Virus record (IMG/VR): IMGVR_UViG_3300044858_005326
Location: 1 to 27,558 of that record
Source: a virus
Strand: one strand, 5' to 3'
DNA length: 27,558 bases
Under the pieces are notes generated by a model. That model was not told where the DNA came from. It saw only the letters and a program-made list of their open reading frames with translations, and made no database searches. Made by a program: the position numbers and the translations under genes. This document shows, in pieces, positions 10,409 through 12,432 of the stretch (position 1 is the first letter of the stretch; every line of letters starts with the position of its first letter).

Positions 10409-10573
10409 ATGGCAACAGTGAGAATAAAATACACCAAGCACGGAGAGCCGCAAAACGTGTGGCATGAAGGCCAGTTCGACAGCGGCACCGATATGTGGAA
10501 AGCACATGCCAGATTCTGTGCAGACCACAAGTGTCGCAAGTGGAAACTATCAATTGGTAACGCGAAGCAATGA
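10409..10573 (+). CDS. Small hypothetical protein (54 aa)
   Basis: A 54-residue basic protein (MATVRIKYTKHGEPQNVWHE at the start) with two cysteines and several tryptophans. It begins 4 bases after the previous stop and its stop overlaps the next ATG (ATGA at 10570-10573). No family was recognised; acceptance rests on the tight spacing. Confidence 0.55.
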   Translation: MATVRIKYTKHGEPQNVWHEGQFDSGTDMWKAHARFCADHKCRKWKLSIGNAKQ

Positions 10574-10809
10574 CCCACACCATGACCCACGGCATAATTG
10601 AATCACTCCGCGCGTTGTTTCCGTCTCGGCCCAAGCGTGACTATACCAAGCAGCTCTTCGATTTATCAAATTGGCATGCCATGCATTATGGTTGTTTAAC
10701 TGGTTTTGAAAAAAACTCATATTGCATTCTGCCACCTACCCATCGGAGCAAAAAAAGGTACAGATGCTGTGAGCCAGTGCGTAATAACACAGGACCTGTC
10801 CAACCTTAA
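10570..10809 (+). CDS. Hypothetical protein of atypical composition
   Basis: A 79-residue frame coupled to the previous gene by ATGA. The first third matches the phage codon use, but from about 10650 the DNA turns AT-rich (gttttgaaaaaaactcatat) and the peptide has no clear secondary-structure pattern and three cysteines. The gene may be a remnant or the 3' part may be imported or shifted in frame. No function can be proposed. Confidence 0.4.
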   Translation: MTHTMTHGIIESLRALFPSRPKRDYTKQLFDLSNWHAMHYGCLTGFEKNSYCILPPTHRSKKRYRCCEPVRNNTGPVQP

Positions 10810-10820
10810 TAGTTTAACCG

Positions 10821-11252
10821 ATGACCCGCTACCTCTGCACATCCACCACCGGCAACGAGCTGGAGCTGCGGTACAATGCCGATGGGCTGCTCATATTCAT
10901 GGAGCTGCGTGGCACGTTCACCGATGCGCAGTGGCTGTACGTTACGAGCCGGATAAGTATGCGTGCTGAAGATGGGCACATGAACGACCTGAAGGCCGTG
11001 CCCGGACTCACCGTCACCGAGGCACCGCTCACATTCACCTTTGATGATTTCTGGCAGGCATACCAGGAGAAGCGGAACAAGTTAAGGGCCGAGAAGCTCT
11101 GGGCGCGCCTGAGCGATGCCGACCGCATTGCCGCCATTGCCGCCATACCGAAGTACGACAAGTGGCTATCCTGGAAAGGTATTGCAAAAAAAGACCCCGA
11201 CACCTACCTCCGGAACAGATCCTGGGAGGACGAATACAAAATGAAAGGATGA
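10821..11252 (+). CDS. DnaT-like / replication-protein C-terminal domain protein
   Basis: A 143-residue protein. The second half (about residues 75-140) follows the pattern FWxxYxxK, a run of helices with KLWARLSDADRIAAIAAIPKY, and an ending PDTYLRNRSWEDEY, as in the C-terminal domain shared by DnaT-type primosome proteins and many phage replication proteins. The first half (CTSTTGNELELRYNADGLL) is beta-rich and not recognised. It could help load the host replisome during replicative transposition; this is inference from the family. Confidence 0.65.
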   Translation: MTRYLCTSTTGNELELRYNADGLLIFMELRGTFTDAQWLYVTSRISMRAEDGHMNDLKAVPGLTVTEAPLTFTFDDFWQAYQEKRNKLRAEKLWARLSDADRIAAIAAIPKYDKWLSWKGIAKKDPDTYLRNRSWEDEYKMKG

Positions 11253-11362
11253 GAAAACAGAGACCCACCCGCGAGCAGCGCATCATCGAGCACCTGGCCG
11301 TGGGTGCTGTGGTCATCATCGCATCATTCATTGCTAAAGGCATATACGAGTGGGTGTGGTGA
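11249..11362 (+). CDS. 37-residue single-span membrane protein
   Basis: A short frame coupled by ATGA to the previous gene: a basic N-terminus (MRKQRPTREQR), one hydrophobic helix (LAVGAVVIIASFIAKGIY) and an EWVW end. It fits a small inner-membrane peptide of unknown role. Its stop codon abuts the left attC-like site directly, so the insertion described next did not disrupt it. Confidence 0.55.
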   Translation: MRKQRPTREQRIIEHLAVGAVVIIASFIAKGIYEWVW

Positions 11363-11466
11363 TGGGCAACGTTTTCGGGCTTTGCGTTCGTTTTTTGCCT
11401 ACTCGAATGTTCAAAGTTAGCACCAATGTTAAAGGCAAAAAATGACGCAAAACCCGTGTTATGGGC
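11363..11466. repeat. Left attC-like hairpin site flanking a gene cassette
   Basis: Long imperfect inverted repeat: 11377-11399 pairs with 11434-11455 (about 19 matches with a small internal bulge) around a 34-base loop. Outer core-like boxes are TGGGCAAC (11363-11370) and GTTATGGGC (11458-11466). These two boxes do not pair well with each other, but each pairs with the outer box on the other side of the methyltransferase gene. That is the pattern expected after an integron-type cassette inserts at GTT. The boxes fit the classical RYYYAAC/GTTRRRY consensus only in their AAC and GTT cores. Confidence 0.65.
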
Positions 11467-12075
11467 AGTTGCGGTTTAATAACTAGAAAGTAAAAATGGA
11501 AATACAAACATCACTTTGGGAGAAGCCCGTTTTAGAAGCGGATATAGTTTATACACCGACTTATGTTAGTGAACACATTGTGCGTTGGCTAAACCCAAAA
11601 GGGAAATGCTTAGACCCGTGCAAAGGCGATGGAGCTTTTTATAATTATTTGCCTGAAGATAAAGACTATTGTGAAATACGAGATGGCAAAGACTTTTTTT
11701 TATACGAGGGCAAAGTAGATTGGGTAATTGGAAACCCACCATACAGCATATTTGAGGACTTCTTAAAAAAAGGCTTTGAGATTGCCGACAATGTAAGCTA
11801 CTTGGTGCCTACTAACAAGATATTTCAAAGGCAAATAATTATGGAAATGATTAACAAATACGGAGGGATAAAAAGCATAATCATTTACGGAAGCGGACAA
11901 TTGATAGATTTCCCTTTTGGGTTTTCGGTTGGCAACTTCCATTTTGAAAAAGGATATAAGGGCGAAACCAAAGTGTTAATGGGAATGAAGTCTATTTTTA
12001 GCACGTCAGGTAGCAATTGCCCATAACAAAGGGCTTAGCGCCAGTGCGAGGAACGAGCATTGCGCCAAGCCACTG
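11459..12075 (+). mobile_element. Integron-type gene cassette carrying a methyltransferase
   Basis: About 617 bases from the TT of the left GTT to the G of the right GTT. Its first bases (GTTATGGGC with the shared G) are the perfect reverse complement of GCCCATAAC at 12019-12027, so a circularised cassette would rebuild a fully paired attC. It holds a single gene in cassette orientation, starting 37 bases from the left edge and with its stop codon inside the attC box, as is usual in cassettes. It is AT-rich compared with the phage. No integrase gene is in the window, so mobilisation would need a host integron. Confidence 0.62.
11496..12026 (+). CDS. Cassette-borne N6-adenine DNA methyltransferase
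   Basis: A 176-residue protein with SAM-binding motif I (LDPCKGDGAFY, about residues 39-49) and catalytic motif IV NPPY (about 80-83), in the order seen in N6-adenine methyltransferases. A short THERE-type region follows (VSYLVPTNKIFQRQ) and there is no obvious separate target-recognition domain, so it is smaller than most free-standing enzymes. No restriction gene is beside it. The stop TAA (12024-12026) lies inside the attC box. DNA is AT-rich and codon use differs from all phage neighbours. Likely roles are protecting phage DNA from restriction or altering host methylation; target sequence unknown. Confidence 0.82.
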   Translation: MEIQTSLWEKPVLEADIVYTPTYVSEHIVRWLNPKGKCLDPCKGDGAFYNYLPEDKDYCEIRDGKDFFLYEGKVDWVIGNPPYSIFEDFLKKGFEIADNVSYLVPTNKIFQRQIIMEMINKYGGIKSIIIYGSGQLIDFPFGFSVGNFHFEKGYKGETKVLMGMKSIFSTSGSNCP

Positions 12076-12082
12076 TTGCCAA
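12019..12082. repeat. attC-like site of the cassette
   Basis: Imperfect inverted repeat: GGGCTTAGCGCCAGTG (12031-12046) pairs with CATTGCGCCAAGCC (12058-12071) across an 11-base loop, with unpaired bases in one arm as in attC sites. Outer boxes are GCCCATAAC (12019-12027) and GTTGCCAA (12075-12082). The first is the exact reverse complement of the cassette's left edge (GTTATGGGC). The second pairs 7 of 8 with TGGGCAAC at 11363-11370, which lies outside the cassette. Confidence 0.65.
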
Positions 12083-12108
12083 GGCCCATTCCTAATTCTT
12101 AATTGAAA

Positions 12109-12432
12109 ATGAGCAAACCCACATCCATCACCATCAAGTGCGACCGGTTCAGGCTACAGCAGCTGCAAGCCGTATGTGCAGGCGTCAGCGAGGGCTGTGC
12201 CACCGCCTCAGCTGGCTTGGACCGGCTCATCGGCCTATCGGCCACCGACCTGAGCATTAAGATGGCTAAGAAGCTGTGCGAGCCGCGCAACAGCTACAAC
12301 CTGAAGCTGTCGGCCCGCGAGGCCGCTGCCCTCGAGGTGGCCCTGCTCATGGTCATAAAAGGCACCGAGGATCAGGTGGTCCTGATGGCCATGCGCCCGG
12401 TCGTTGCCCAGATACACCAGACCTACTGCTGA
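12109..12432 (+). CDS. Hypothetical early protein
   Basis: A 107-residue helical protein; it is the first phage gene after the cassette and returns to phage-like GC and codon use. The start ATG at 12109 is preferred to TTG at 12103. Recognisable features are limited to amphipathic helices (SAREAAALEVALLMVIKG, about 67-84). Its stop overlaps the next start (TGATG). The cassette sits between this gene and its probable former promoter, so its transcription now runs through 740 bases of inserted DNA. Confidence 0.62.
   Translation: MSKPTSITIKCDRFRLQQLQAVCAGVSEGCATASAGLDRLIGLSATDLSIKMAKKLCEPRNSYNLKLSAREAAALEVALLMVIKGTEDQVVLMAMRPVVAQIHQTYC

Follow-up and report, generated by a model that had tools for sequence, protein, structure and literature searches.

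The locus and its carrier phage

The window, by which we mean the whole stretch of 27,558 bp analysed, is a 27.6-kb virus contig. It encodes a MuA-like protein (phrog_310, E 2e-43), a MuB-like protein (phrog_296, E 6e-28), a DnaT-like protein (phrog_270) and GemA (PF06252, over the cut-off), and its MuA, MuB and GemA identify the carrier as a Mu-like transposable phage of the Bacteroidota type. The features of the region studied are as follows.

10821-11252: DnaT-like ORF; its stop overlaps the start of the 37-aa ORF
11249-11362, + strand: gene for a 37-aa putative membrane peptide, left neighbour of the insertion on the phage side (ORF read directly)
11363-11367: left phage flank abutting the cassette; with the cassette deleted it forms a GGGC/AAC junction with the right hairpin (restored-site test)
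11368-12024: mobile unit of 657 bp, attC-like site plus gene (641/657 identical in phage contig L046, where the sequence to the left and right is unlike that of the window)
11368-11460, + strand: left hairpin (hL), putative attC-like site of the methyltransferase cassette (93/93 in L046, fold, model)
11458-11467, + strand: inner core of the cassette, GTTATGGGCA, reverse complement of the other cassette end
11496-12026, + strand: cassette gene, 176-aa N6-adenine-type DNA methyltransferase (PHROG 799, Pfam N6_Mtase)
12018-12027, + strand: end core of the cassette, TGCCCATAAC; its AAC (12025-12027) is common to the right hairpin
12025-12077, + strand: right hairpin (hR), an attC-like site with no gene that the phage probably had before the cassette (not in L046; refolds on removal of the unit)
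12109-12432, + strand: 107-aa ORF bordering the insertion on the right, part of the phage (neither Pfam nor PHROG gave a match)

The 176-aa protein matches PHROG 799 (DNA methyltransferase) at E 4e-26 and Pfam N6_Mtase at 21.2 bits, just over the cut-off of 20.4. No relatives of the gene at 12109 were found in viral_contigs. The AT-richer stretch at 10570-10809 contains a 79-aa ORF, has a G+C content below the phage level and adjoins no attC-like site; it was considered as an earlier cassette and rejected, since it gave neither a covariance-model hit nor a Pfam match. The 37-aa ORF was rejected as a cassette gene because region 11253-11367 lacks a GTT and has its sole AAC at 11256.

The left hairpin as an attC-like site

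The hairpin that the initial annotation had placed at 11363-11466 is real. Folded as single-stranded DNA, region 11368-11460 reaches -21.1 kcal/mol (z = -4.29), and 0 of 200 dinucleotide shuffles folded as well. In the DNA fold about 11376-11400 pairs with 11434-11456, and an inverted-repeat search agrees on the hairpin. Support that is independent of folding comes from a second phage (L046), in which 93 of the 93 bases are conserved. The core AAC of hL starts at 11368, with the stop of the 37-aa ORF just upstream (11362), and its left spacer is long (5-6 nt) and its right one short (1-2 nt). Thus, hL is an imperfect single-strand hairpin with inverted cores that end in AAC and start with GTT, as attC sites have. 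The consensus cores of attC sites are RYYYAAC and GTTRRRY. The cassette cores, GTTATGG and CCATAAC, keep GTT and AAC and fit this consensus only partly at the other positions. Textbook attC sites have their extra-helical bases on the L'' side; the extra T of hL lies on the long-spacer arm, which is L' under the polarity used here, a strand assignment that could be reversed. The GTTRRRY core is also the one given in the available text of Qi et al. (PMC9892861).

Hairpin hL and the methyltransferase gene move together

A pattern scan of viral_contigs with the right arm and core of hL gave 15 stretches, 13 of which, judged from their flanks, look like sites of one family. One 52-kb phage contig (L044/L046) carries the same hairpin together with the same methyltransferase gene, the unit being identical at 641 of 657 positions and the site at all 93. 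The match runs from 11368 (AACG) to 12027 (CATAAC) and its AAC-core ends are identical, whereas the 30-base flanks on both sides differ between the window and L046 except for the shared AAC. The right hairpin is absent from L046, which has instead an unlike hairpin followed by a second small gene with paired cores of its own and no hairpin after it. In the window, GTTATGGGCA (11458-11467) and TGCCCATAAC (12018-12027) are complementary at 10 out of 10 positions, and the unit has a G+C content of 38% versus 56-64% around it.

Because L046 shares hL and the gene with identical ends, but has different flanks and no hR, the sequence comparison strongly indicates that the hairpin and the methyltransferase gene move together and that hL is the cassette's own attC-like site. 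For exactly this cassette, co-mobility is judged from one other contig (L046). Blocks of site plus gene that end at, or within a few bases of, two AAC cores recur in other contig pairs (for instance L035/L040 and L032/L040), so that these pairs, like L046, show single-gene, single-site units with their breaks at the core. The initial annotation had hL in the phage before the cassette arrived; this order has to be reversed, as it is hL that would travel with the methyltransferase, hR not being shared. Its more general view, that a cassette was inserted and that of two unlike attC-like sites with different stems one is the cassette's and the other is older, describes the right kind of event. A DNA-level search of the phage collection with the 657-bp unit gave no match, and paired GCCCATAAC..GTTATGGGC cores were found in viral_contigs in one unrelated contig only (L002). 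A transposon with terminal repeats was also considered, and was rejected since no transposase is present inside the unit.

The right hairpin as likely landing site

The stem of hR differs from that of hL. Its fold (12025-12080) has an energy of -11.2 kcal/mol and a z of -1.68, with 14 of 200 shuffles folding as well, and the model score of 12025-12077 is 18.9 bits (E = 0.17 over 232 kb), in the same polarity as hL. The case for hR is weaker than that for hL. Its 19-base arm has no other copy in viral_contigs. No paired core lies within 4.4 kb downstream of hR, and therefore it would have no gene of its own.

In-silico deletion of 11368-12024 produces a closed hR site, with the fold going from -12.0 to -17.0 kcal/mol. 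The outer core of hR, GTTGCC, has 0 bases paired with the cassette end and pairs with the left phage flank, GGGCAAC; the three contiguous matches beyond AAC/GTT are also found at 6.4% of the window's 311 AACs. The restored site has a G+C content of 57%, which is phage-like, versus 38% for the cassette. Since this site has paired cores, a better fold and phage-like G+C, the phage is likely to have had hR as a solitary attC-like site, on which the cassette then landed.

Sixteen Mu-like relatives (L003-L018) were found through MuB. All are distant (39-62% in MuB), and many are short or do not have the DnaT-like/12109 region. Neither a covariance-model hit at E ≤ 1 nor a protein match to the methyltransferase was obtained in any of the 16; one weak stem match is present in L003. 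Absence of hL from relatives that lack the methyltransferase was to mean, according to the initial annotation, that the two arrived together, and as far as this set allows such absence is what was found (0/16). Both neighbours were seen only in the closest relative, L009, in which the DnaT-like match extends to 11070 and a GemA-like one starts at 11088, a gap of ~18 bp without a hairpin; neither the 37-aa gene nor that at 12109 has a match in L009. Thus, the proposal of a permanent docking place for cassettes stands in part: re-formation of a paired-core site upon deletion supports a docking place at hR, but that it is permanent is not supported, L009 having no hairpin. Given that the relatives are all distant and many of them short or without this region, a docking site in the phage's own lineage may exist.

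A large family of sites in Bacteroidota and their phages

Covariance model R1 was built from 31 aligned sites, that of the window included, and its E-values are rough; the score of 82.2 bits for hL is a match by construction, the window's own site being in the training set. At E ≤ 1e-6, R1 had matches in 83 of the 198 Bacteroidota genomes searched, compared with 1 of 149 in a control phylum. As judged from these matches, the hL site belongs to a large family. A second pattern gave 88 stretches in viral_contigs; 80 loci of these were listed and the 79 new ones were examined for polarity. When searched over their whole length, nine viral records were found to contain 1 to 35 sites each (E ≤ 0.001). 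Members of the family are arranged in arrays, with their cores paired, and multi-unit arrays are common in phages. The cassette of the window is taken to be one of a large and apparently undescribed family of integron-like phage cassettes. With a single terminase profile 19 of 46 site-bearing records were matched, 15 of them over the cut-off. A short-loop pattern gave 0 hits in 296 Flavobacteriales genomes, which does not speak against the presence of sites there, since its loop length excludes those of the host type.

Flavobacterium gelidilacus (G009; e.g. L028, L176-L187) has 68 R1 hits at E ≤ 0.01, a set of superintegron size, and no canonical IntI over the cut-off. A 169-kb viral record (G499:C1:77254-116500, which includes L081) has an array of 35 sites followed by its own integrase lacking the IntI patch (see below).

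Opposite gene polarity in phage and host cassettes

To compare polarities, each site was oriented with its long-spacer arm on the left (spacer of 5-6 nt versus 1-2 nt; typically GGCTTTGCG), and the longest ORF of each paired-core unit was used. The 166 phage model hits came from 44 of the viral loci fetched. Leaving out 27 of them (two were L042 duplicates of L033; most of the others scored low or had an odd length, though a few reached 44-53 bits) and including the window gave 140 sites and 125 ORF-bearing units. On the host side 3 of 77 hits, cut by contig ends, were left out, and the remaining 74 sites gave 53 such units.

In the phage contigs 124 of the 125 units read away from the site, whereas 49 of the 53 host units read toward it (Fisher p = 7e-38; units within one array are not independent, and the hosts are mostly F. 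gelidilacus). An earlier phage set, which overlaps the 125 units, had given 63 away versus 1 toward, the exception (L062) looking like a chance hit. For hosts, 0 away versus 12 toward were counted in ten genomes, and 4 away versus 33 toward in twelve stretches of eight genomes, a set partly overlapping the former. The window gene reads away from hL, and so it departs from the usual layout in which the gene runs toward attC. Phage units end at the long-spacer core, and from the position of the integrase we infer that host units do likewise. That cassettes of phages and hosts are opposite in polarity holds whichever strand recombines. Since the polarities are opposite, the idea in the initial annotation that the phage collects genes from host integrons is doubtful. 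With this difference, sequence data can also be used to test where cassettes originate and how they flow.

IntI-like recombinases without the IntI patch

The cut-off of TIGR02249 was exceeded in 0 of the 8 first host genomes, 1 of 12 further genomes and 0 of 51 viral records. Four of the eight (G002, G003, G004 and G009) and most of the twelve gave instead a strong match in two parts that skips the IntI-specific region, and in 8 of the 12 this match shares its contig with listed sites. Alignment with the canonical IntI of G310 showed that nine host and five phage proteins lack the IntI patch. The nine host proteins keep the catalytic motifs and an SP[LF]D end.

A site is present on the same stretch for eight of the nine patchless host genes, with the integrase on the short-spacer side at distances of 0.3 kb (G325), 0.8 kb (G002), 1.0 kb (G478) and up to 10 kb (G470); in G057 a further site lies on the far side of the integrase gene. 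Seven of the 51 viral records have an integrase match, which is beside an array in five (G487, G498, G499, G524 and G526). These five phage integrases lie 0.5-2.4 kb past the short-spacer end of the array and share their strand with the cassette genes. The integrase is thus on the same side in hosts and phages, while the genes run away from it in hosts and toward it in phages. A check of some proteins of each of the five records revealed phage markers, namely terminase in G487 and G498 (phrog_2) and in G526 (Pfam), a virion protein in G524 and a tail-fibre protein in G499. The window record has no TIGR02249 match and no integrase in cis, and hence is not a complete integron. Genome G310 has both types of protein, the canonical IntI (G310:C5:61111-62052, 429.7 bits) and a patchless one near an array (G310:C1:47633-48442); a stem scan of the stretch around the former gave no site.

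Cargo of the cassettes

The phage cargo set consists of 139 cassette proteins of at least 60 aa, each of which may match more than one family. Among them are 31 matches to N6_N4_Mtase, 4 to C5 methylase, 3 to D12, 2 to MT-A70, 2 to N6_Mtase and 1 each to Dam, Mom and Com. In the host set a DNA methylase match was found for 1 of 49 proteins, among the 25 families listed. Phage cargo is therefore rich in DNA methylases, although part of the enrichment may stem from the way the sites were found. Such a content suggests that phages draw on a modular supply of genes against restriction. The Mom and Com zinc ribbon matches, each in a single phage cassette, are to the DNA-modification pair of Mu. Host cassette proteins, mostly of F. 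gelidilacus, contain Abi_alpha, SIR2_2 and TIR_2 domains, which suggests that host cassettes carry defence genes.

Origin of the inserted cassette

We consider it highly probable (about 0.88) that a 657-bp integron-like cassette, composed of hL and the methyltransferase gene, entered the Mu-like phage when a site-specific recombination took place at the core of a solitary hR that was already there. A single attC-like hairpin would have resided after the 37-aa gene (it is now at 12025-12077), and a cassette with an attC-like site of its own would have been inserted at its core, the folded single strand presumably recombining at the core that adjoins the long spacer. The recombinase would be an IntI-like tyrosine recombinase without the patch, probably acting in trans and encoded by the host or by another phage resident in it, the contig encoding none. 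The phage may gain from this in that the methyltransferase would mask its DNA from restriction. The ends of the unit, its co-mobility, the swapped complementarity of the cores, the membership of a family and the integrases of one type near array ends elsewhere can all be read from the sequences compared. More broadly, we lean to the view that Bacteroidota phages keep integrons of their own, with arrays of up to 35 cassettes, a phage-encoded patchless integrase and genes facing it. Their methylase-rich pool would be separate from that of the hosts and traded among phages as an anti-restriction toolkit, and the methyltransferase of the window would be a stray cassette.

The roles of the hairpins may be exchanged, hL being the phage's own site and hR that of a classical cassette in which the gene is followed by attC on the + strand. 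Textbook cassettes do end in their own attC, and the core swap, being symmetrical, fits either way; yet L046 shares hL and the gene (641/657) and nothing of hR, and its array ends with a gene that no hairpin follows, which makes this arrangement very improbable. A tentative variant of the preferred explanation, and one we would give some credit, is that hR is the remnant of an earlier cassette in an array, whose gene was lost. The identical polarity of hR and hL and the frequency of multi-unit arrays in phages speak for it, and the lack of a partner core within 4.4 kb downstream and the phage-like G+C against it; such a remnant would still have served as landing site.

Two other explanations do without cassette chemistry or without mobility. 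Illegitimate recombination may have copied the fragment with hL and the methyltransferase gene out of an array in a host or phage, a route raised for phage CALINs in the available text of Qi et al. (PMC9892861) and in keeping with a contig that has no integrase. We regard it as very improbable, because in both phages an AAC core bounds the shared block at either end, such ends recur in other contig pairs, and the cores of hR match across the insert. That the hairpins are merely transcription terminators or RNA elements is hardly conceivable: both are inverted repeats near gene ends, and attC sites are thought to hold weak terminators (PMC9892861, available text), but no Rfam family reached its gathering score in 11200-12250, and the site travels with the gene, which is enclosed by paired cores, and recurs in arrays with unrelated genes. 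A role as terminator could coexist with mobility.

Relation to known integrons

Phage integron cassettes with methyltransferases are already known. As far as the available text goes, Qi et al. (2023; PMC9892861) describe attC-flanked methyltransferase genes in phages without integrase, including one Bacteroidota phage, Polaribacter P12002L, with two methyltransferases, and recombination of phage attC sites by IntI1 in 5 of 6 cases. The window resembles these phage CALINs in having an attC-flanked methyltransferase and no integrase on the phage. It differs from what that text describes in that its site is of another sequence family (P12002L gave weak R1 matches only, at best 25 bits), and the present phage cassettes differ in that their gene polarity is the reverse of that of the hosts and their associated integrases lack the patch.

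In the available portions of PMC2426708 and PMC9668308, IntI is defined by its extra domain. The latter also mentions integrons of reverse orientation in Spirochaetota, which are like the present ones in that the integrase is not in the usual divergent orientation and unlike them in the phylum. According to the accessible part of Smyshlyaev et al. (2021; PMC8138268), conservation of the integron-specific insertion is incomplete within an integron-like subgroup of simple tyrosine recombinases. This subgroup would admit patchless members such as those found here; that part of the paper does not link them to Bacteroidota cassette arrays or phages. Bacteroidota integrons are rare in the IntegronFinder 2.0 paper (PMC9024848, accessible part), the earlier study of its authors having found In0s only, after which one complete integron was found, in Salinibacter ruber. 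A Bacteroidota-wide cassette system may have gone uncounted, because R1 matches 83 of 198 genomes, and in several of these the matches lie beside integrases without the defining domain. No report of a patchless system throughout Bacteroidota, or of flipped polarity in phages, was found in open-licence PMC papers.

Sites that are 97-99% identical to hL are present in L127, L118 and L092, beside other sequences or genes and with different cores. From these, it seems that the site of a cassette may stay while its gene is exchanged, or vice versa. The sedentary chromosomal integrons of Vibrio have VCR repeats of ~120 bp that are similar to each other and common to many cassettes. The present integrases differ from those of Vibrio integrons in that they lack the IntI patch and in most cases share their strand with the cassette genes, but the near-identical hL sites beside other genes and cores in these three stretches are reminiscent of the VCRs.
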